Assembly: GCA_008933995.1 (NCBI GenBank)
Contig: WARS01000012.1
Coordinates: 7,635,001 to 7,699,000 of the forward strand
Source: Datnioides undecimradiatus
Lineage: Eukaryota > Chordata > Actinopteri > Lobotiformes > Datnioididae
DNA: 64,000 nt
Reading direction: 5' to 3'
How positions within the stretch are numbered: the stretch's first letter is position 1; each line of letters opens with the position of its first letter. A program made the translations under genes and the position numbers. Below the pieces are notes generated by a model. The model had not been told where the DNA came from, did no database searches, and was given only the letters and a program-made list of their open reading frames with translations. This document shows, in pieces, positions 30,101 through 64,000 of the stretch.

Positions 30101-31483
30101 CAGAGCAATGAAATCAGTGTCATGGCAGTGTCATAGTGTCATGACACTGATGGTCATTCTGATGGGGATTTACCATTTGAGTTATGGTAAAATTATAATG
30201 AAGATGTATATGAATCTTAAGGATGTAATGTAGATATTTCGGCTGACTGAATATTTAATATGAAGTCCATAGAAGAGATTATTGTAGTTATTCATTTCTA
30301 GGTTAGATAGCTATAAAATAAGATGTTGTGCTATCAAGAATTTACTGTTTTGAAGAACCCCAGCAGAGAACAAACTTTGCTTGTAGCACATTACACAATA
30401 ACAACAATATGTACATTTGAAGTAATTGTGCACACGGTATCACTAATGTTGTGGATCTCAGGATCTCAGGCTTCCCATATAATAACACCTTCCACATATA
30501 ATTGCAATCATGTGATCATCAGTCAGCCAATCATATGATTGTTCATCAAAGTTTTGACTCTACTCACTTTGTTTTGTTGTCTGGCAGAGCCTAAGATGAG
30601 AAGATTAATATCATTTGTAAATTTGCATGTCAAATATAAAACTACAGCCTATGCCGCTTACGGTTAACTTAGCATAGCTTAATGCAAAGACTGGCAACAG
30701 GAGGAGACAGCAAACCGTTCAAAGGTGACAAACCTGCGTAACAGCACCTCTAAAACTCAGATTTTATTTGTTTGCTTTGTACCAAAATATCAAAAACACA
30801 GTTGACCATTTTTCAGGAGGGTTGTGCAGGACTATATCTTGACTCTGAGCCAGTTGCCAGGCAACCAAAGGTGGAGACTTCAGGAAGTAACTGGGACCAG
30901 TAAAGAAATAGTCCAGTCTGTAACCTCATGTAAAGAATCAAATTGTTGATTTTACACTGTGGTTTTTATACCGATTGTTTTTTTAAAAAAAGGTTATCTG
31001 GTATTCTTAGAGGTGCTGGTTGTTGGACATGAGAGCAGCATCAGTCTTTCCATTGAGGTCTCTGCCAGAAAGCAAATTAACAAATTTATTAAAATGTTGA
31101 ACAGTTTCTTTTCAGTCTAACAGGATTGTGATCCAGTCTTATTCCTCTCAGCTCTAGTCATGAGCAGACACTAAAGAGACGTTGACTCTGTCTCTCCTCT
31201 GTCCTCCACAGTGAGCTCGGAGGTAGGTCGTGCAGTCTGGCTTCGCTTCTCCCCGCCGCTCCCGTCCTCGGGGCCCCAGCCCAGCTTCATGGCCCACCTG
31301 TCAGGGGCCGTGGTTGGTATCAGCATGGGGCTGCTGATTTTGCGCAGCTACGAGGAAAGTCTGCAGAAACAGTGCTCCTGGTGGGTCATTGTCTTCTCCT
31401 TCATCACCTTCCTCCTCTTCGCCATCTTCTGGAACATCTTTGCATATGAGCTGCTGGGGGTCCAGATACCACCGCCTCCCTGA
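2900..31483 (+). CDS. rhbdl1: Rhomboid-like protease RHBDL1, 5' part missing
   Basis: Seven coding exons were assembled with consistent phases: 2900-3058, 10612-10836, 12223-12371, 12525-12637, 27194-27294, 29228-29288 and 31212-31483 (TGA). They give 359 residues; the N-terminal exons lie upstream of the window. Rhomboids are multi-pass intramembrane serine proteases of the secretory pathway. The fragment begins inside an EF-hand-like region (LDPENTGFI) and continues with SSKRSSSF, the first hydrophobic segment after CPPPVF, and the [13 protein letters not shown] loop. The catalytic motif GGSGGVYAL has its serine at fragment residue 233, and the second catalytic residue is His298 in [10 protein letters not shown]. 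The protein ends in IPPPP. RHBDL1 is preferred over RHBDL3 because [17 protein letters not shown] and the C-terminal half match recalled human RHBDL1 more closely, and because wdr24 is nearby as in human 16p13.3. The (CT)n tract at 27155-27189 serves as the polypyrimidine tract of exon 5. Known substrates cannot be read from the sequence. Confidence 0.95.
3099..3128. repeat. (CA)15 microsatellite next to a splice donor
   Basis: Fifteen uninterrupted CA units begin 40 bases downstream of the rhbdl1 donor at 3059. Confidence 0.97.
10088..10310 (-). repeat. Diverged percomorph-type interspersed repeat, copy 1
   Basis: Blocks such as ggcttagcat, aagtctggaaac and attaacatgtaatat occur in the order I recall for a short repeat abundant in percomorph introns and UTRs. 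The same blocks recur at 30546-30800. The family assignment is from memory. The copy lies about 300 bases upstream of the rhbdl1 exon at 10612. Confidence 0.5.
10837..12222 (+). other. rhbdl1 intron of 1.4 kb
   Basis: AT-rich intron bounded by donor gtgaga and acceptor tgtctcttgcag. It contains one arm (11094-11117) of a 24-base inverted duplication whose other arm is at 14582-14605. Nothing else is recognised. Confidence 0.85.
12638..27193 (+). other. rhbdl1 intron of 14.6 kb
   Basis: This largest intron separates the exon ending in YMAGVLAG from the exon carrying the catalytic serine. It contains a diverged repeat near 14770-14965 with a 15-base tandem duplication, an octamer/homeodomain-like motif at 24916-24930, and stretches such as 17330-17800 whose mixed composition could suit conserved non-coding elements. 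The many short frames (for example around 23015-23886 and 24072-24383) have no recognisable domains. No gene is supported. Confidence 0.8.
14770..14965 (+). repeat. Diverged teleost interspersed repeat with 15-bp tandem units
   Basis: The series gtgacatttagca, ctaaactaagatga, cattttacctg, atcagcatgtta and ttagctcaaagtgctgc follows the order I recall for a very common percomorph intronic repeat. The 3' end carries two perfect 15-base units (14928-14942 and 14943-14957) plus five bases of a third. Family identity is from memory. Confidence 0.5.
27295..29227 (+). other. rhbdl1 intron of 1.9 kb
   Basis: Intron between the catalytic-serine exon (donor gtaact) and the NWAGMRC exon (acceptor gttgcag). 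A short CA tract lies near 28430. Nothing else is recognised. Confidence 0.85.
30546..30800 (-). repeat. Diverged percomorph-type interspersed repeat, copy 2 (inverted)
   Basis: Read on the minus strand it contains ttttagaggtgctg, gccagtctttgcattaagct, ggctgtagttttatatttg and attaatcttctcatct, matching the order I recall for the repeat. Part of it recurs in opposite orientation at 30840-31130. Confidence 0.55.
30840..31130 (+). repeat. Diverged percomorph-type interspersed repeat, copy 3
   Basis: On the plus strand it contains aagaaatagtcc, taacctcatgtaaag, cttagaggtgctgg, ctctgccagaaagcaaa and aaaatgttgaacagtt. It shares the agaggtgctg and tctgccaga blocks with the inverted copy beside it. 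It appears to carry an internal deletion relative to the element I recall. Confidence 0.55.
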
Positions 31484-37149: not shown

Positions 37150-37155
37150 TTTATT
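37150..37155 (-). terminator. Candidate polyadenylation signal of the HhH gene
   Basis: AATAAA on the minus strand about 80 bases after the stop codon at 37233. Other AATAAA copies lie closer, for example at 37224-37229, so the one used is uncertain. Confidence 0.45.
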
Positions 37156-37232
37156 ATTTATAAAAAAAAAAGTACAAAACAAACATTTATCAAAACAAGT
37201 TACAATATTAAAAAATAAAATAATTTATTAAT

Positions 37233-39229
37233 TTATTTTGTTTTGAGTTTCTTTGCTGGTGTCTGATCAGCATCGACATCTGAGCGCTTCTCCACCATGC
37301 TGCTGGTTTTTACATTCACGTCCTTTAGAAGTGGGAGCCGATGCTTTTGAGCTATGGTCATTGCCCACAAACATAGCTCCAGTCTTTGGGGCGTCCAGTC
37401 CTGCTGGGGACCCACTGAGAATGAGAGGGAAAGCCGGTCGTCAGAATCAAAGCAGGTTTGATGTGTTTTTTTTCCTTTTTTTTCCTAATCAACAGTAGTA
37501 GATCCTTGAAATTTTTATCTGAATTTATTTCAAATGTTAAATACAATCTAAACAAAAATAGATTAAAAATTATGTCTTCAACAATCTGATACCAAGATGG
37601 ACCAGTGCAGATGAACTTAAACCCAGCCTAATGACATCATTACCTCACCTTTGTTTAGCTTTTCAGTCCTCTCAACCATTTTGCCCAGGTAGAGAGCATA
37701 GTGCTTGGCTGTGTATTGGATGGGCTTCAGTCCTGGTACACTCTCCATAGCCTCATCAGACATGAATGCAGTCTGTTCTGGAGCTCCTGCCGCCAACACA
37801 GCTGGGGAAAATGGACAGTCAGCCCCAGGCCAAGCTGAATGTAGCCTCAAAGTGAATACAAACTATTTAAACAGAGAGCAGGGGGTCCCAACTGCTCTGT
37901 GCGCCAGCGTAAGGAGTGTACACATACTGAGAAGGCAATTACTATGTGCTTTAAGAGGATCACAGAGACGTTTTATCAGTATGAATTCTTGAGCTTTGAT
38001 CTATTTGCCTATATGCCGACGATATGCTAACCTGAAGCTGTGGCTGGGCCGACTCCTTTCAGGGAGCTAAGCTCTGCGATCGCTGCCTGCACATCAGGCA
38101 GGAGGCTGAAGGCCTTTCTGGAACATTTCTCCACAGTATCCTCACTGTTGGAAGCCACCAGCTGCTGCAGCCTCGGCCTGAACTTCCCTCTCTGCAGAAA
38201 AGCATACAGGGCCACTCAAGGACACAGCTGATGCACCGAGCGCTGGTAGACTGTTAGTGCCGCACTGTAGCTATACCATATGTTAAGAGTGTGTATTTAC
38301 TGCAGCAGTGTGACAACATCTTTTGTGTGGGTTGAGTTAAAGTTTCAGGATTATTAAGCTTTAGTGTCTAGACACTACTCACAGTGAGTTTCCACTCCAT
38401 CAACTTCACCAGCTCTGACAGAGTGACATGTTTGTCTGGTCGACCTGAAATAAGTGTTGGCAGCTCTTCCTGGTACCTGGACAGAGATACAAACAGTTTA
38501 GGATCACTTACCTTTAATATTATACTCCAAACAAGGATGACTGAGCTCAGTTTAGATAACGCATTCATTTAATAAGTATAGTCATATATGCACTTTTGTA
38601 TATTCACAGTCATAAAAAGACACGCTATAGACGTACTGTAACACCAGGAGGAGCAAAAGCAAGAGTTGTGGCAAAACAATCACCAACTTAACGCCCACTT
38701 ACGAGCTTTTTCACAGTCTTTCAACTTTATCATGTGGCCTTCATCAATAGAGAGTTTACATAGTTGTCATTATGATTTTATAAGCAAACCTGGACATGGA
38801 GTATTGTTGTGAATATATCAACTCCAAGTTCCTTGACAACTCAGCAAACCCTCTCTGATGATGAAGACATTGTGAAACAATTGAAAGCTCTAGAAAAGGC
38901 AAGTAAGTGGACCTTGAATTGAGTCTGGGTTTGGGTCAAATTGCTATTTCCAAACTCAAGAGCTGGTGACTTTTGAGTGACTCCTGACATAGTGGAAATC
39001 AGCAGACTAACCGATTTATGACACAGTGAGTGTCTACAGCTCTCCCTTATCCAATGAAATTGAGTGTGATTTTGTAACTGTTGCCGTGAGGAAAAGGGAT
39101 TTACCACTTGTCAAGGTTCAGCAGCTTTCCAGGTTTCTTGCCTTGGGCCTTGGCCTCCACTACATCCCAGTACTTCTCATACACACTCCTCCATGTGGCT
39201 GGGTCCTCACAAGCAAACAGATCACTCAT
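37233..39229 (-). CDS. Uncharacterised HhH-GPD-like protein, 237 residues
   Basis: Five coding exons: 39229-39105, 38476-38383, 38191-38032, 37801-37649 and 37414-37233. All junctions are GT-AG with matching phases, and the start is MSDLFACEDPATW. I do not recognise a named gene. Residues 114-132 form a helix-hairpin-helix with the core LKGVGPATAS, as in DNA-binding and repair proteins. Asp142 in MSDEAMESV follows at the spacing of the catalytic aspartate of HhH-GPD glycosylases (endonuclease III, MutY, OGG1). The lysine used by bifunctional glycosylases is replaced (GVGPAT), and no four-cysteine iron-sulfur cluster is seen at the C terminus. WKLTRGKFRPRL (70-81) looks like a conserved family block. 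The tail ends in PAKKLKTK, a possible nuclear localisation signal. A DNA base-recognition or glycosylase role is inference. A non-coding first exon is likely because an acceptor-like ctgtag precedes the start. Confidence 0.88.
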
Positions 39230-39560: not shown

Positions 39561-40788
39561 AGAAGGTTTGTGCCCAGAAGTCCTTTCTTATTGACTTTGC
39601 ACAGAAACTGTAACACAATGGGACACCGCTCAGATAGTTCTCTAGTTGTTTGACATACTCGTAAAAGTTGTCTCGTGCACGTTTCCGTCCTTGCAAAAGT
39701 GTTCGGCAGCTAGCTTAGCCAGCTAGCATTAGCATCACATTCCAGGCATGTTTATGGTGCAAATACAGTGTGTGCAGAGAGTGGAGCTAAGTGTAGCAAC
39801 ACACGAGCAGCCAGGTGGAAAAGCTGACGGATAAACACAGCTCCAGTGTAACCCTGTCCTGAAGTAAAGCGAACCACAGCCCAAGCACGAAACCAAGGTT
39901 GTACTAGTTCTTAATGGATCTTTGTAGTCATTCTCAATCGTGTTTCTTGTGTGAGTAAGTCCTCTCACAGTCCCCCTTCAGTTTGTCTCTCATCATATCC
40001 TCACGTGAGCACAAAGCAGCTGTCAGCGTTAGAAGTTAATTAAGTTAATTAAGCTAACACTAGCACAACGTTGTGGACAGAGGAGTTAGAGGTAAACAAA
40101 CAGCTAGATGTAGATACAAATTCTCCACTGTCTAATGATAAAAGGTAATGAACAGTTTCAACAAGTAAATACTAATAATAGTTTGGCATATTTTTATATA
40201 TAACTTTGGAGTGAAAACAAGAAAACAAGATGTTAATGTGGCTAACTCTGCCAAGGTTTACATCATTCAGAGTTAGATTGCAGGTCTGTGTGACAAAAGT
40301 TCACACAACAACACTTCATGAAATGTGTTCATTTGATAGCAGATAGACATAATGGATATCTTCTAACTATAAACTCAGACTGTTTCACGCCATGTGTCTC
40401 TCACCAGCAAGGTGGCTCTCATGGGAGCACATGAAGAGGACTCTGTGCTGCTGCAGACATTGACAAGGCGTGTGGTAAGCACTGCACCTCTTTTTGGTCC
40501 AAAATGTTGAAATCAATATTAAATTGTGCTCTGATATGTTTGTTACAACACTGCCACCACTCCTGTGCTCCCCAACAAGTACTGTATAACTCTGACATCT
40601 TATTTTGTTTGAGTGCCACCTCCTGGTGGATAGATCAACTGCCTTAACATCATTTTATGTTTTGCTCATATGTCTTATATATATCAGTGCTGTAAAAGTA
40701 GGTATTGAATTTGCAGTTCATGTGATGCATCGTCTCACTTTAACTGTGTCTGAGCTCAACTACAATCAATGTTGTCTGCACCAGGAAC
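39561..40788 (+). other. wdr24 5' region with a possible non-coding exon
   Basis: The wdr24 start codon lies four bases after the acceptor at 40781-40784, so at least one upstream non-coding exon is expected. One candidate is 40408-40474, bounded by ctctcaccag and gtaagc. Nothing else is recognised in the interval. Confidence 0.45.
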
Positions 40789-43700
40789 ATGGAGAAGATG
40801 TCACGGGTTACCACAGCCCTCAGCAGCAGTGCCATCAGTGGCCGGACTATGTTCTGCCACTTGGACGCTCCTGCCAACGCTATCAGTGTGTGCCGTGATG
40901 CCACGCAGGTGGTGGTAGCTGGCCGTAACATCTTCAAGATCTATGCACTGGAGGAGGAGCAGTTTGTGGAGAAGCTGAATCTACGTGTCGGTCGCAAACC
41001 CTCTCTTAACTTCAGCTGTGCAGATGTAATGTGGCACCAGATGGAGGAGAACCTGCTGGCCACAGCTGCTACCAATGGGGCGGTGGTCACCTGGAACCTG
41101 GGAAAACCCTCTCGCAACAAGCAGGACCAGCTGTTTACTGAGCACAAACGCACTGTCAACAAGGTGTGCTTCCACCCTACAGAGGTTTACATGCTGCTAA
41201 GTGGCTCGCAGGACGGATTCATGAAGTGCTTCGATCTGCGCAAGAAGGAGTCTGTCAGCACTTTCTCAGGTAGAATATTGTGTGATAAACATGTTTCTAA
41301 CTATTAATTTCCCACAAATTAATTACAGCTTCTGACTTTGTTGCAAAATAACTTCACGTCTTTACAGTGTGGTTTACTGAAATCGTTCTATATTGTGTGA
41401 AACAGTTCCAACAGTAAACAAGAAAAAATAATGTGCCAGAGCAAAAGTAATGAAATCAAATCTGTAATGAAATCAAATCTGTGATTCTTAGGGCTTAAAT
41501 TTTCTTTCTTCTAGGTCAGTCAGAGAGTGTGAGGGACGTCCAGTTCAGCATGAAGGATTATTTCACTTTTGCTGCTTCCTTTGAGAATGGCAACGTCCAG
41601 CTGTGGGACATCAGGCGTCCGGACCGCTACGAGCGAATGTTCACCGCCCATACTGGTCCTGTGTTCTGCTGCGACTGGCACCCTGATGACAGGTAATGGA
41701 AAGTGACACAAACCAGGTGTGAAACTGAAGGGTTTCCGTTCCGAAGGTATCTTAGGTCACTCTATCACGTCTAGTTGGTATTACAATAGTTGTGAGAGTT
41801 TAGTGATTTATTCGCCAATAACCTATAACTTTTATTCCCATTTTAGGGGATGGCTGGCCACCGGAGGCAGGGACAAGATGGTGAAGGTGTGGGACATGAC
41901 CACTAACCGGGCCAAAGAAATCTATTGTGTCCAGACGATCGCCTCCGTGGCTCGGGTCAAGTGGAGGCCCGAGAGGAGGTTTCATTTAGCAACCTGTTCC
42001 ATGATGGTGGATCATAACATCTATGTGTGGGATGTCCGCAGACCTTTCATTCCCTTCGCCACCTTTGAGGAACACAAGGATGTGACCACTGGCATTGTGT
42101 GGCGCCATCAGCACGACCCCCATTTCCTGCTGTCTGGCTCTAAGGACAGCACACTCTACCAGCACATGTTCAAAGACGCCACTCGTCCGGTGGACAAGGC
42201 CAACCCTGAGGGTCTGTGCTTCGGACTGTTCGGTGACTTGGCCTTTGCAGCTAAGGAGAGTCTGATCAGCAGTGATGCCAACAGGAAGCCTTACCCTGGA
42301 GGCGACCGCCGCTACCCCATCTTTTTCTTTAAGAAGCCCGACCCAACAGAGCAGTTTGCCCACGTGTCTAGCGCCCTTAGTGTCTTCGAGACAGACTTGG
42401 ACAGTAACCGCATGGACTGGTTTGTTAAGACAGCACAACTCTACCTCCTCAGTGGAAAACCGTTTGCTGAGCTCTGTGATCACAATGCCAAGGTGGCCCA
42501 GGAGCTCAAAAGACCTCAGGTCAGACAGATCAATACATGAACAAACCTCTGCTAAGTGCTATATTCCTTTGTAAACCCAGCAGGGTTTTGAAGTTGTCAG
42601 TTTAAAATCATTGATATATTATAGAGATATTACTGCAAAACAATGACACAGACTTTACATTACTGGTTATTTCTCTTGAAAGTGATATAGTGCTTGTCAC
42701 TCTTTTGAAAAAGTAATTAACTAACTATTATTTTTATTATTTGTTAATCTACTGGTTAAGTTCTGAACAATCGTTCAGTCTAAAAATGTCAGTAAATTTC
42801 CCAGAGCCCATGTCTGATGTCTATTAAAACCCAAAGACGATGAGTACCACAATACAGTGAGAAAATACACAATACCACATTATCATCAGAGTTAGTAAAA
42901 GTAATAACAGCCTTTTTATTTTAGGGGGTTAAAGGGACGGCACAGTGAACAGAATCAATGATAAAAGATATTTGATGAATGTAACAAGCTGTAAGATCTG
43001 TAACTGTGATCTGATACTGAAATTGTTGCCGTGCTTCTCTAAAGAAAAACATGAAAGAGATCACGCTAACCCATCACTTTGTGACACTTTAATCATGTTT
43101 GTGTTTTCTTTCCATACAAAGGTTTCCACAACATGGACCATGTTGAGAATAATGTTCTCTGACCCAGCAAACCTCACAACACCCGGTCCAAACCACAACC
43201 TCATTAAACTGGGCACCTTGCCTTTGATGAACAGGTGAATAAGTTCTTTCATTGTGCCACTACACAACAGCAGTGCCAGTCGTTTACAGCCTGACATCTA
43301 ACACGGATGCACATTATGCTTTCAGTTTCAGCATGAAGGAAATGGGTTCAGGGATCGGCACAGAGAGCAGACTGGAGCGCAGTAAAGGTGAGAGCAGGCA
43401 GGACAACATCCACCTGGACCCTGGGAACTCGCACATCAGCAATAATAATGAAGGTGAGAGCAGCCATCTAAACTCTGAGAAACCAGTCTGGTTGTATGTA
43501 TGGTCTTCGTTTAATGTTCAAGACTCAAATTAATAAGCCATTCACTGAAATCCCCTTTAGAAAACGAGGAGACAGAAGGCAGCGAGGGCCAGGCGGAGTA
43601 TATGTTTGGAGACGCAGAGTTAGATGATGACGACCTCTACTCTATGGAGCATGACAACCAAACAGGTCAGTCACAGTCCCATCTCTGCGGAAATGAAAGA

Positions 43701-49594: not shown

Positions 49595-52500
49595 TAGAGG
49601 TCTCATTTTTGATCTGTTACTGAGTGAGAGTACATAGACATACCTTTGGACCAGTGTATGAGGGTGGAAGACCAACATGTGTGCGCATCCCACAGTTTGC
49701 TGTGCCACTGGAGTGAGCTGCATCGTTGCTTCCATGGCGACTCTTGCCTTTTGAGTGATGGCCCTTATTGACTCTGCGAGAGCTGCTCTTCTTGCACGGG
49801 TCAGAGTCCTGATGGAGGCAGATACACCATGTGTCACCGCGATATCGGACTGTGGTTTGACACTGCAACAGTGGGATTTCTGTGTTCTTGTGTTCACCTC
49901 ATTACTCTCCACAGAGCCTTCCCAGTTGAGGCCCATCACATGAGGCAGGCCTTCACTGCTGCTGCTGCTGCTCCTCATGGTGGGCATGTCATTGTCAAAG
50001 AATGGGCTGTCATCTGCAGTGGTATTTACATTGAATGAATTGCTTTGGCAGATGTCCAAGGATGTTACTTGTCTTATCACTGATCATATCATGTGTTCTG
50101 TTTCTTGCATTTCTTCCAAACAGACACACACCTTTTTCAGTTATGTTACAAAACTCTGATAACCATGTGCTTCTCACCCCTGCTGCTGTTGCTTTGGCCG
50201 TCCAGCTCGTTGATGGGAGAGGTCACGTCACGGTAGCAGATGCCTTCACTCTGTTCACCAATATCCCGAAACGTCATGTAGCCTGGCGGCACTGCAGGAC
50301 GCTCTGCGAGGAGAAAAGCGGTATTAACAAACCGCTGTCCTAGAGTAAGAAAAGGCCAACCGACTTGAATGCTGTCTTCAAAATAGAGCCGTCTTCACAT
50401 TTGCAAATACAGTTTCTCCTCAGTTTTGTCACATCCTGCAATAAATCTGTGATTAATTCTCTTTGTCTCTCAGGATTTAAGGAATACCTTTATGATGTAC
50501 ACAAAGTAACCTTAGTGTGATTCACCCTTCTTATTGCACAGGACTGTATTTCCTTATAATGTGCAATTAGATACAGCAACTAGCACCACCACACTTTTAA
50601 CATGTGACTGGTGTGAAAACAGGAAGACAGGATGTCTTATGTTACACTACCACACAGTTTGCTGGCACCTCCTACTCGGAACTTAGCAATGGCCTGGGGC
50701 CCATCATGGATGCTAATGCCTTTAGCTCTGTTTCTACTCCGTATCCTCGGGGGGGCGCTGTCTGAGTCCTCAGAGGAGCTCAAGTCTTCAAAGTGCCCTG
50801 AGATGTTGGATCATGCACAGATACACAAAAAAACCAATCAGAAATACATAAGAAACAAAGGGAACAACATATTTTGTAAACATAACTAATGAAAAGTGGA
50901 GTTGTTTCATCAAATACCTGGTTTCATCCTTGGAGACCGTGAGTCAATGAGGCTGACGATCTTGGTGTAGCCATACATCATGGCCAGGGCACGGGCTGTC
51001 TCTCCTTTGGCATTGCGATCATCAACTTTAACTTTCTGTAAATAATAGATGTCAGGATCATAATACACCATCTCTGTGTGAACAGGAGAATGAGCCTCTT
51101 CTTTTTGTAATGCACATCCTAGTGGCTTGCTAATTTCCTGATGCTGTGGCTGCAGGAAATTACCATTATTGTGGGGGTAACCAACTCACATGGTCAAGCA
51201 GGTTCTGAACAATGATTTCATGTCCAGAAGCAGCAGCCTCCATCAGGGGAGTGAAACCAGACCCAGGCTCCCTGTGGATGTAAGAACGAGTAACGAAAAC
51301 CTCTGTCTGACTGGAGTACTGCAGGTTTTTTTGGACTGAATGAAGAAACTCACTTGACATTAGCATCAGCGTTGTTATCCAGCAGGAACTTGACCATCTG
51401 CTGATGGCCTGTGCTCGTGCAGTGGAATAAAGCAGTCCAGCCTCGAGAGTCCTTCAGCTCCAACTCAGCACCTTGCTTTAGGGGTAAGAAAAACAGGAAT
51501 GCTTTTAGAGTCTGATTGGCAAAGCACACCATCTCAAGAAAACAACAAGACTAGTGTTTTTTCCATCTTTTCAAAAGAGCATTGGTAAAATCCAACTGCT
51601 AAAGACTGCAGGTGCAAACTACAGGTTGCATTTTTGTTAAATCCAGATTTGTTTTCTGTTTTTCAACATACAAATGCAAAATACACCTGCTACAGCAACA
51701 TCCAGTAAGTTTTAAGTATGAAGTCCATTATGTGAGCCTTACAGTGGTTTACAATTGTAGAAAGATCTTAAAGTGCTTCTACAGATACTGTATATGCAAT
51801 ATATCTGTGGTCGCACATTAATCTTTCTCTATGTTAAAGGACCATACAGGTGATTTTAGCCAGTTAACTTCAGTTAACTTTTAGCCAGTCCCATTAGCTT
51901 TTCTATTACCATCCACATTTATTATAAAGATGCTGCTATTTTTCCATCTTACTTTTGAGGCAACATTTTGTTTTTCGATCATTTCACAGTATGAAAACTA
52001 ACCTACAAAGTAGGTTGTAGGTGTAGGATGCATTTTTTTTGTCAAATGTTATGTTATTTTTGCACAAGAAAACTGTTGAAACCTTCCTTGTTGGTACAGT
52101 CTGACCCAACATTAAGGTTTTGGAGACTAACCTGCCAAATATGGACCTTTTGCATTGAAAAGGCATTTTTGACAATGATGTTAGTTTACATTTTGCATTC
52201 TAGGTTTGATTTTTCAGTAACACCTTTAAGAACGCAGTGCTTTTGTGCAACAAACAACCTAAACTCTGCATGGTTTGCTATTCCAGAAAAGCGTGACCAA
52301 GTTTCATGATGGTTTTGAAATCAAAAAAACAAAACTTATTTGAACACCTTTTTCTTGGATATCTGATACACCAATGTCTGTCTGTCTGTCTGATAGTGCC
52401 GATTTGTACCTGAAGCAGAAAGTATGCGATACTTTCATTCCCACAACTCGCTGCCAACATCAAGGGGGTTAACCCTTTCGCGGTGGCAGCATTTACATTC

Positions 52501-52857
52501 ACGCCAGCCTCCAGCAGGAGATTTGCAATGTTGTCATGGCCGATGTAAGATGCATACATCAGTGGGGTCCATCCTCCAATGTTCTTGCCATCAAGGTCCA
52601 CCTCACGCCTGAAAAGACACCAAACCATAGTTATCAATACACAATGTCAGGCTGAAGACGTACTGGCATATTATCATATATGTTACTCACTTTTTGATGC
52701 ACTCTGCAACCACGTCGTACTGGCCGATGGAGCAGGCGGTGTGCAGGTCCAGGGGGACATCCAGCTCCTCGGGTCGCACCAGGGAGTCACCCAGCCACAG
52801 GGAAAGGCTGGCACCCAGCTGCTCTGATTCACTGGCTTCATCACTTAGCTCAGACAT
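48434..52857 (-). CDS. anks3: Ankyrin repeat and SAM domain protein ANKS3
   Basis: Fourteen coding exons on the minus strand: 52857-52691, 52608-52410, 51475-51354, 51271-51190, 51035-50918, 50797-50651, 50303-50178, 50013-49898, 49808-49644, 49472-49348, 49257-49116, 49015-48754, 48670-48599 and 48516-48434 (TAA). All phases match and the product is 641 residues (human about 656). ANKS3 is a scaffold of the NEK8/ANKS6/inversin ciliary module and binds through its SAM domain. Six ankyrin repeats cover about residues 35-230 (GWTPLMYASYIGH, GLTPLMLAASCGN, GWTALFHCTSTGH, GFTPLMEAAASGH). A serine-rich low-complexity linker follows. The SAM domain begins at DLAEFLEQIGFSKY (about 415), and a coiled coil runs from about 470 to 600 (EQAYADQLEAEMQEMA). 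The protein ends QSLRRLSAPEKVSDSWERP. The 934-base intron 51476-52409 holds nothing recognised. Confidence 0.96.
49549..49589. repeat. (CA)20 microsatellite in an anks3 intron
   Basis: About 20 CA units on the plus strand, inside the short intron 49473-49643. On the transcript this is (TG)n upstream of the SAM-exon acceptor. Confidence 0.95.
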
Positions 52858-62094: not shown

Positions 62095-63216
62095 TTAGTC
62101 TTTATTTGAGGGGAATATAACAGTTTGTGGAAGAATGTTTGAGCTTAAATGTGTGGACTGGCTTGGCCTGTTGCACGTTGCGAGGATGCACACGCTTGCA
62201 GCTGGAGCATATATGGATTTTCCTGAGGCTGACCTGTGCAGCTTGGCCCATCTGCTCTTCTGTTGGACAAAAAGCCTCAGTTTTTCCTGAAAAGTCTCAC
62301 CAAGGAAGCTGTAGATGAGTGGGTTCAGGCAGCTGTTAGAGAACGCTGCCAGCCTGACAGCATGACCTGTCAGCGGGTAGTCCTGCCACAGTGTGCCCCC
62401 GTCTGCATCATCTCGTAGAAGGTGAACGCTTATAAACACATTCTCGGGGAGCCAGCAGATGAAGAAGATTAACACAGCTGCTGAGATCATCCGCAGGGCT
62501 TTCTGCCTGCGAGGCCTCTGCTGTGGACTGTCTTGCTCCCTCTGGCTTCGCTGCAGCACCTGTGCTATTCTCCAGTAGCACACACCCAAGATGCAGAAAG
62601 GCAGCAAGAAACCCAGCGTCACCTCCAGCCACTGAATCTGGGTCACGTTTGCAAAGCAGAAATGGAGTTCTCCAGCGTGCTGCCTTTGAGCTATTGCAAA
62701 AGGTAGCACAGTAAACAGAGACGAGGACACCCAGATGAGGCAGCAGTTGAGGCGTGCACGCGGCATACTGCGTCCCATGAAGCCGGTCAGTGCGACAAAG
62801 CGGTCGAAGCTCATCCAGGTTAAGAAGAAGACACTGCTGTACATGTTGAGCTGCTGGAAAAGGTTCATGAAGGTGCAGAGGCCAGTCATGTCATAGTAGC
62901 CCTGCTTCAGGTTGAACACCTCGATCATAGAGTCAGCCACAAGGGCGAGGTCGGCCACGGCCAGGTTCACAAAATAGAGGTCCGGGGCTGACAAACGACC
63001 CTTGTGGTCTAGGTTGACCACCAAGATGAGGATGTTCCCAATGAAGCCGACAGGGAACAGGAATATAGTGTAAATACTTGACAGGAAGAGGCTGATGATA
63101 TAATGCTGGTGGTTCTCTGAAGCCGCCTGCAGACAATCAGAGACGACTCCCGATTGCGTGTCATTTATCTGAACAGTCAGGTTATACTCAGCGATGACTC
63201 TGTAGTACATGTCCAT
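62095..63216 (-). CDS. gper1: G protein-coupled estrogen receptor 1-like (GPER1)
   Basis: A single-exon frame of 373 residues encodes a class A seven-helix receptor. GPER1 mediates rapid, membrane-initiated estrogen signalling through G proteins. Identity rests on blocks shared with vertebrate GPER1: [83 protein letters not shown], and [20 protein letters not shown]-glycosylation sites are at Asn12, Asn18 and Asn190. Cys114 and Cys187 are placed for the conserved disulfide, and NPLIY is at 298-302. Unusual features are DRF (138-140) in place of DRY and a long serine-rich tail with no similarity to mammals. It could be a divergent teleost duplicate rather than the one-to-one orthologue. The start is the first ATG in frame. 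It is nested antisense in c7orf50. Confidence 0.92.
62101..62106 (-). terminator. AATAAA inside the last gper1 codons
   Basis: The codons for Asn-Lys just before the final Asp and stop spell AATAAA. No other minus-strand AATAAA was noticed in the roughly 150 bases downstream, so this may serve as the polyadenylation signal and give a very short 3' UTR. Confidence 0.4.
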
Positions 63217-64000
63217 GTCCCTATTCCACTTTTGTGTTCTTCTTATGTTAAGTTGCCATAGTTCTTAGTTTTCCACAGGTTTTTAACCCCTGGTGCGTCT
63301 GTGGTGCCATCTGCTTCCTCTTTCTGCAGTGTTGTCGTCTTGCATTGCGGAGTGGAGTTGATGGCCAGTCTTGGATCTAGACAGAAAGCAGAAGTGCAGT
63401 TTGGTTTCAGGCATCAAGGCTCAGATTTAGTGTGAATGAACCCACTTCTGGAGGCTACATTTTAATGATTGATAAGAAATATGCTATTAGATTAGATTGT
63501 GGAAATAATTTTGGATTAAAAGATATTTCTTACTTGGATGTAAGTTACTATACCAACCCTAAAAAGCTCAGTTACAAAATGAACTTACTGATCTGCTGTA
63601 GCCCCTTGTCGTGTCAATGTCACTGCAGCTTTTATATTTATTTCAAAGTCAATATTAAGAAAGAATGCTATAAAGAGAAGGTTTGCTCTTCTTTTGCATC
63701 TTCTACTTTATTATAAGGATGCAAAATCCTTTATAGTAGGCCACCCAGGTAGTCTCTGGGTTTAAGGCGACAACCATAAACATCCCTGGTTTGAGTCAAG
63801 TTCGGAAGAACGTGAAGTTGAAATAATGAATCAATTGGCCAATGCAGCATCTTTAACTTGAAAACTACTAGATTAGTCACATAGCTAGGCAATGAATTAA
63901 TGTATGATACATACCTGGACAATTATTTAAAAAAGTTTAAACTCACCTAAAAACTTAGTTTTCCTTGCACTGCATTGTGCTTCTTCTGATCCCCTCTGTG

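Follow-up and report, generated by a model that had tools for sequence, protein, structure and literature searches.

Vertebrates have only a small, well-studied set of DNA glycosylases, and a gene in the genome of the fish Datnioides undecimradiatus raises the question of whether its product is a further protein built on the HhH-GPD scaffold and, if so, which residue would take the catalytic role. The gene lies in a stretch of 64,000 nucleotides, hereafter the window, and a first-pass annotation made from the letters alone had described it as coding for a divergent HhH-GPD-like protein with Asp142 as the catalytic aspartate. Proteins of the HhH-GPD superfamily hold the DNA backbone with their hairpin and flip the base into a pocket between two domains, where an aspartate supports cleavage, joined in bifunctional members by a lysine (in part from PMC3397491).

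The proposed gene structure proved sound. Five exons can be spliced into a frame of 714 bases including the stop codon, which encodes 237 residues, and all four introns begin with GT and end with AG. In window coordinates, the features of the gene are:

39105..39229, minus strand: exon 1, coding for residues 1-41 plus two bases of codon 42; start codon ATG at 39229, donor GTAAAT
38383..38476, minus strand: exon 2, residues 42-73, which carries EWKL
38386..38397, minus strand: EWKL motif, residues 69-72 (W70, K71)
38032..38191, minus strand: exon 3, residues 74-126, in which the helix-hairpin-helix begins
38033..38062, minus strand: hairpin LKGVGPATAS, residues 117-126, matched by Pfam HHH (PF00633)
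37649..37801, minus strand: exon 4, residues 127-177, which carries the Ser-Asp-Glu motif
37752..37760, minus strand: Ser141-Asp142-Glu143, with Ser141 aligned with the Asp of the family described below
37233..37414, minus strand: exon 5, residues 178-237 and the stop codon
37359..37394, minus strand: TPQRLELCLWAM, residues 185-196, matching the C-terminal helix region of the same family
37236..37259, minus strand: PAKKLKTK basic tail, residues 230-237, resembling a nuclear localization signal as read from the sequence
37150..37155, minus strand: AATAAA, candidate poly(A) signal, starting at 37155

A second AATAAA starts at 37229, directly past the stop codon, and the basic C-terminal PAKKLKTK hints at a nuclear location. 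In a six-frame protein search of the 581-Mb, 497-contig assembly (E ≤0.001), the five exons of this gene were the only matches. The window had no match in Rfam, and no paper recognisably about the gene was found among the literature matches listed.

Searches with the fish protein alone reached little beyond the hairpin. The helix-hairpin-helix of the superfamily is present, as the generic HHH model PF00633 was the sole Pfam family above its cut-off (E 1.7e-5; 24.8 bits against a cut-off of 24); the HhH-GPD model PF00730 was absent from the five Pfam families listed up to E 10. Weak NCBIfam matches to comEA, IS110, MutY and RuvA clustered around the hairpin, all far under cut-off (13.4 bits against 286.5 for MutY), and the Ogg2 model NF002305, with a cut-off of 183 bits, was not among them. 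In the PDB, phmmer found no relative (best E 0.7). The hhalign comparison of the lone fish protein ranked RadA (48.2%, 23 hairpin columns) above Nth (29.3%) and Ogg2 (0.8%), with the RadA and Nth matches confined to the hairpin. A search of the fish genome with PF00730 listed one place, on a different contig from the gene. Because the direct searches reach only the generic hairpin, the HhH-GPD proposal requires a longer route.

That route runs through a family of hypothetical proteins from haloarchaea and their viruses. With the fish protein as query, tblastn aligned residues 42-194 with the Haloarcula hispanica viruses HHPV3 and HHPV4 (E 2e-6) and residues 39-172 with a Natrialbaceae plasmid (4e-4), and genome searches seeded from these matches yielded many haloarchaeal relatives. 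Plasmid searches added single bacterial relatives from Deinococcus, Methylobacter and Streptomyces, the initial Streptomyces match having an E of 0.5. With profile A5, matches were counted in 232 of 391 Halobacteria genomes, a number whose weak end may take in other HhH-GPD proteins. Among viral contigs, profile A2 recovered the same two HHPV genomes, and the fish protein, profile A4 and the relative L051 found no relatives; among genome contigs, profile A4 found four loci and profile A3 none. Further tblastn searches returned HHPV3 and HHPV4 only (query P0001), no match among phages (query P0002), and three records and one record when relatives were compared with plasmids. Since profile A5 includes the fish sequence, its genome results are not independent; fish-free profiles were used instead, and the fish sequence was excluded from every profile that served as a test.

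The family set comprises 48 archaeal and viral relatives in subgroups A-F (17, 11, 6, 10, 2 and 2 members), drawn from 82 ORF matches. Of the 34 omitted matches, 15 are the fish's own exons in five loci; the others were set aside as duplicate, broken or truncated copies, apart from two long frames and L010, whose residue in the Asp place is Asn. The three bacterial relatives also stand outside the set, and all three have the Asp by eye. Members have in common the motif order WK, a helix with AF or AL, L..L.GVG.ATAS.IL, P, A[VI].D and Y, and then a C-terminal helix that closes with ALW or a variant of it. The same order is found in the fish protein, as in HHPV3 putative protein 17 and HHPV4 ORF8 (PHROG 24538), including WK (36-38 of 48), the hairpin, the conserved Pro, a C-terminal LW-type helix, and a hairpin column free of lysine. 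In the MAFFT alignment, 38 relatives have W in the W70 column and 10 are gapped there; in the K71 column, 36 have K, two have Y and the same number, 10, are gapped. The fish protein differs in having Ser141 where 47 of the 48 have Asp and in its longer basic tail. Identity to the relatives is 20-26% in multiple alignments and 30% in a pairwise alignment with P0002. A tree did not place the fish protein: its long branch joined a long Streptomyces branch (82/71), a kind of grouping flagged as unsafe, and bootstrap values had yet to stabilise. PADLOC, applied to six relatives, gave one weak match, of L073 to Drt3a (0.033).

Aligned by hhalign with the fish-free profile of all 48 rows, the single fish sequence matched at 98.6% over residues 45-198, compared with 0.1-0.2% for five shuffled fish sequences. 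Among the subgroups, B, which contains HHPV3, matched at 98.1% over residues 7-197, followed by A, E, D, C and F (97.1, 92.7, 74.0, 48.9 and 3.1%). EWK, P134 and the LW region near the C terminus all lie within the match, and both hhalign and HMMER align the full domain. The window has 2179 six-frame ORFs of 20 residues or more; among these, HMMER with the fish-free profile matched exon 3 only, up to E 5 (30.4 bits, E 3.4e-8). Splicing raised the score from the 30.4 bits of exon 3 alone to 69.7 bits for the whole protein, an argument for the exon model that does not depend on the first-pass annotation. By hhalign, 82 ORFs of the window had a median probability of 0.1 and a maximum of 1.2 against the family profile. 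Degenerate DNA patterns for GVGPATA and EWK..RG retrieved 41 and 6 viral stretches, respectively. None of these 47 fits the family model, and the best E of the fish protein there was 0.077; the motif alone does not, therefore, generate the family match. No virus-borne homologue of eukaryotic type was found through these two patterns.

The second step connects the family to known glycosylases. In profile-profile comparison by hhalign, the family reached 92.9% with Ogg2, 76.1% with MutY-like proteins and 66.7% with Nth, against 16.5% with RadA and 5.2% with UvrC. Single glycosylases compared with the family profile gave median probabilities of 85.2 (Ogg2, n=25), 82.8 (Nth, 25) and 61.3 (MutY-like, 5); the HhH controls, eight RadA and five UvrC proteins picked from 30 PF14520 loci, gave 10.2 and 3.7. 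In a PDB search with the fish-free, 27-row profile A9, the first eight of the 23 rows up to E 1 were HhH-GPD glycosylases, led by the N-glycosylase/DNA lyases 3knt (1.4e-4) and 3fhf (1.6e-4) and including 8-oxoguanine glycosylase and endonuclease III; from E 0.1, MutY appeared mixed with unrelated proteins. In this alignment, the family Asp falls on the D of AIIDRH. The best of ten relatives against the NCBIfam N-glycosylase/DNA lyase model was L056, at 3.5e-5 and 23.3 bits, under the cut-off of 183. The putative OGG-like family PF21790 was likewise matched under its cut-off of 27 bits, by P0001 (0.011), L010 (1.6e-4), L062 (5.8e-5), L065 (3.8e-5), L069 (0.0011), L056 (0.0055) and L060 (0.055); P0002, L016, L033, L051, L072, L073 and the fish protein had no match to it.

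Subgroups taken singly matched Ogg2 less well (B 58.8, C 38.9, A 6.5 and D 2.9%; hhalign, run on A-D), and the six-row profile A5, fish included, placed topoisomerase V (0.018) ahead of endonuclease III (0.07) in the PDB. Together with the higher rank of RadA over Nth for the lone fish protein, these results mean that it is the pooled family which carries the placement. Homology beyond the hairpin is seen in two steps, from the fish protein to the family and from the family to Ogg2, the direct comparison of fish protein and Ogg2 remaining at 0.8%. An HhH-GPD-like fold of the fish protein is well supported at the level of sequence, because the protein matches the family and the family matches Ogg2 and endonuclease III far above RadA and UvrC. 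The earlier description as a divergent HhH-GPD-like protein is supported in this way, through an intermediate prokaryotic and viral family.

Several details of the proposed active site were confirmed. The hairpin occupies residues 117-126, the first glycine of GVG is G119, and Asp142 follows 23 residues on. The lysine of bifunctional enzymes is absent; the fish has A123, in a column where the 48 relatives have P (29), A (17) or S (2) and none has K. The only cysteines are C7, C96 and C192, and the C-X6-C-X2-C-X5-C pattern of an Fe-S cluster is missing. The assignment of Asp142 as the catalytic aspartate was not confirmed. In the MAFFT alignment of the fish protein with the 48 relatives, the column of Ser141 holds Asp 47 times and Ser once, whereas the relatives have R (17), Y (11), T (10), E (5), P (2), D (1), K (1) and one other residue in the column of Asp142. 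The same ungapped register, with P-E-Q-T-A-F-M-S of the fish over P-x-x-Y-A-V-x-D of the family and Ser141 on the Asp, was obtained from HMMER with the pooled family and from hhalign, whether the pooled profile or that of subgroup A, B, C, D or E was used; the subgroup F alignment by hhalign stops at residue 141. In this register, the fish has Ser141 in the A[VI]xD position. In favour of Asp142, a weak, gapless hhalign match to MutY-like proteins (17.8%, residues 110-142) places it on their Asp, and the glycine-to-Asp distance of 23 is that of all 25 haloarchaeal Nth and all five MutY-like proteins. In Ogg2 this distance is 22 in 15 of 25 proteins and 23 in one, with nine not measured by the pattern; among the relatives it is 22 in 41 of 48, two are read as 27, one has Ser at 22, and four were not measured. 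Both registers are possible, the family alignments giving Ser141 and the MutY-like alignment and Nth spacing Asp142, and the key acidic residue may have shifted by one position. Among the relatives, L067 has Ser and L010 has Asn in the Asp place.

Comparison with known enzymes indicates what the fish protein retains and what it lacks. The hairpin, Asp and C-terminal helix of archaeal Ogg2 (NF002305; PDB 3knt and 3fhf) line up with the family profile, but Ogg2 is an 8-oxoguanine DNA glycosylase/AP lyase with a lysine in its hairpin, GIGYKEAS, where the fish has A123. A C-terminal lysine of Ogg2 senses 8-oxoG (an excerpt of PMC3397491). In the two Ogg2 proteins inspected, the C-terminal lysine lies nine residues past the W; the fish protein ends in Lys 43 residues after W194 and has no equivalent of the sensor. 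Endonuclease III and MutY (PF00730) have the hairpin and the Asp spacing of 23 in common with the fish protein and match the family profile above the HhH controls; unlike them, the fish protein has neither the lysine, nor the C-terminal 4Fe-4S cysteines, nor a match to PF00730. A further parallel, drawn by description only, is Sis-HhH-GPD of Saccharolobus islandicus, in which Ser152 replaces the conserved Asp, as Ser141 does in the family register. According to an excerpt of PMC11754123, this enzyme removes alkylated bases with E134 essential and S152 dispensable; a Glu stands where bifunctional enzymes have their lysine, and a loop carries an Fe-S cluster, features that the fish protein lacks.

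Starting from what is observed in the fish, namely the gene, the homology, and the lack of the lysine and of an Fe-S cluster, a simple model would describe a nuclear protein on a two-domain HhH-GPD scaffold whose anatomy is nearest to that of archaeal Ogg2. The LKGVGPATAS hairpin would grip the DNA backbone beside the target base, and the helices of residues 45-110 and 185-198 would close around it, with the base flipped into a pocket. Water would then be activated by an acid in the turn formed by Ser141-Asp142-Glu143, for which Asp142 is the likeliest candidate, so that the modified base is removed in one step. With no lysine to form a Schiff base, no strand cutting would follow, and an AP endonuclease would act after base removal. 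A monofunctional glycosylase with a shifted acid is the most likely identity of this lysine-free HhH-GPD protein, although its activity is a prediction from sequence to which we give somewhat less than an even chance. The prediction presupposes that Asp142 or an adjacent residue is able to take the part of the acid; if none can, a reader would be expected.

Ranked close behind is a tenable, if less probable, non-catalytic protein that has kept the hairpin and base pocket and lost the acid, with Ser141 for Asp, and whose role would be to read bases that are flipped or modified, or to bind DNA structures as a partner. The departure from 47 of 48 relatives at Ser141, the alanine in the lysine position and the missing Fe-S cysteines all fit such a role. 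An acid is directly adjacent, however, with a spacing that fits the Nth and MutY-like proteins, and the relatives L067 and L010 have Ser and Asn, respectively, in this position. Judging from Sis-HhH-GPD, a Ser here is also compatible with activity, though the fish has A123 and not Glu. That only the helix-hairpin-helix is common with glycosylases, the remainder being an unrelated fold, is improbable: direct searches with the lone protein would suggest as much, but the extent of the family match from residue 45 to 198, the failure of the motif-derived viral stretches to match the family model, and the low scores of RadA and UvrC argue against it. A decayed or mispredicted gene is hardly credible, given the frame intact across five exons, the GT-AG introns, the candidate poly(A) signal and the gain in profile score on splicing.

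Returning to the preferred glycosylase and to the base reader, a bolder and rather doubtful extension would make the fish gene the representative of a separate animal family of monofunctional glycosylases or base readers with a Ser-Asp-Glu turn shifted by one. Such a family would have common ancestry with the one found in haloarchaea, in the viruses and plasmids of haloarchaea, and in some bacteria; it would act on a modified base not handled by the known vertebrate glycosylases. More generally, a further vertebrate HhH-GPD-like protein that lacks both the lysine and the Fe-S cluster, with its acid perhaps displaced, would be a repair enzyme that has so far escaped notice or else a rare instance of a glycosylase scaffold converted to reading.

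The neighbours of the relatives offer hints only as to function. The HHPV4 relative is ORF8, separated by ORF7 from ORF6, and gene 6 encodes the SRA-wH-HNH m6A-dependent endonuclease HHPV4I; HHPV3 gene 15, likewise two genes from the HHPV3 relative, corresponds to a part of HHPV4I that lacks the HNH (an excerpt of PMC10101028). An N-6 DNA methylase lies three genes, with two between, from L010 (L010:2794-3912), a weaker Methanothermobacter plasmid homologue (tblastn 0.04) of 372 aa in which the OGG-like match is followed by a C-terminal half without assignment. In Deinococcus, one small gene separates the relative from recA. With some relatives in viruses and plasmids, and that of HHPV4 near a modification-dependent endonuclease, a role in modified-DNA sensing becomes testable.

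The annotation gives HHPV3 putative protein 17 and HHPV4 ORF8 a length of 330 bases each, with starts at 384 and 4196, respectively. An ATG further upstream opens frames of 223 aa (L006:42-713 and L007:3854-4525), within which similarity to the fish protein sets in at 189 (L006) and 4001 (L007), ahead of the annotated starts. Halalkalicoccus paucihalophilus (G002; loci L017-L019, L022 and L024-L027) has complete and broken copies, with 12 matches, and G197, G227 and G062 also have multiple copies, with at least seven matches each. Many copies in these four genomes have internal stops, as if carried by mobile elements.

Adjoining the fish gene in the window, an exon block on the plus strand (41707-42537) matches WDR24 of GATOR2 (PDB 7uhy_C, 3e-121). 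The frame 40744-41307 appears by eye to be the 5' part of WDR24, which would put it head to head with the fish gene. On the minus strand, 62098-63264 is an uninterrupted frame for a rhodopsin-family receptor (PF00001, 1.6e-46), which we take to be GPER1, and 51169-52646 contains ankyrin-repeat exons (PF00023, 2.8e-15 for 52281-52646), presumably of ANKS3. On the plus strand, the frame 31175-31480 weakly matches the rhomboid model (PF01694, 0.00082, under cut-off) and belongs, we assume, to an RHBDL gene.
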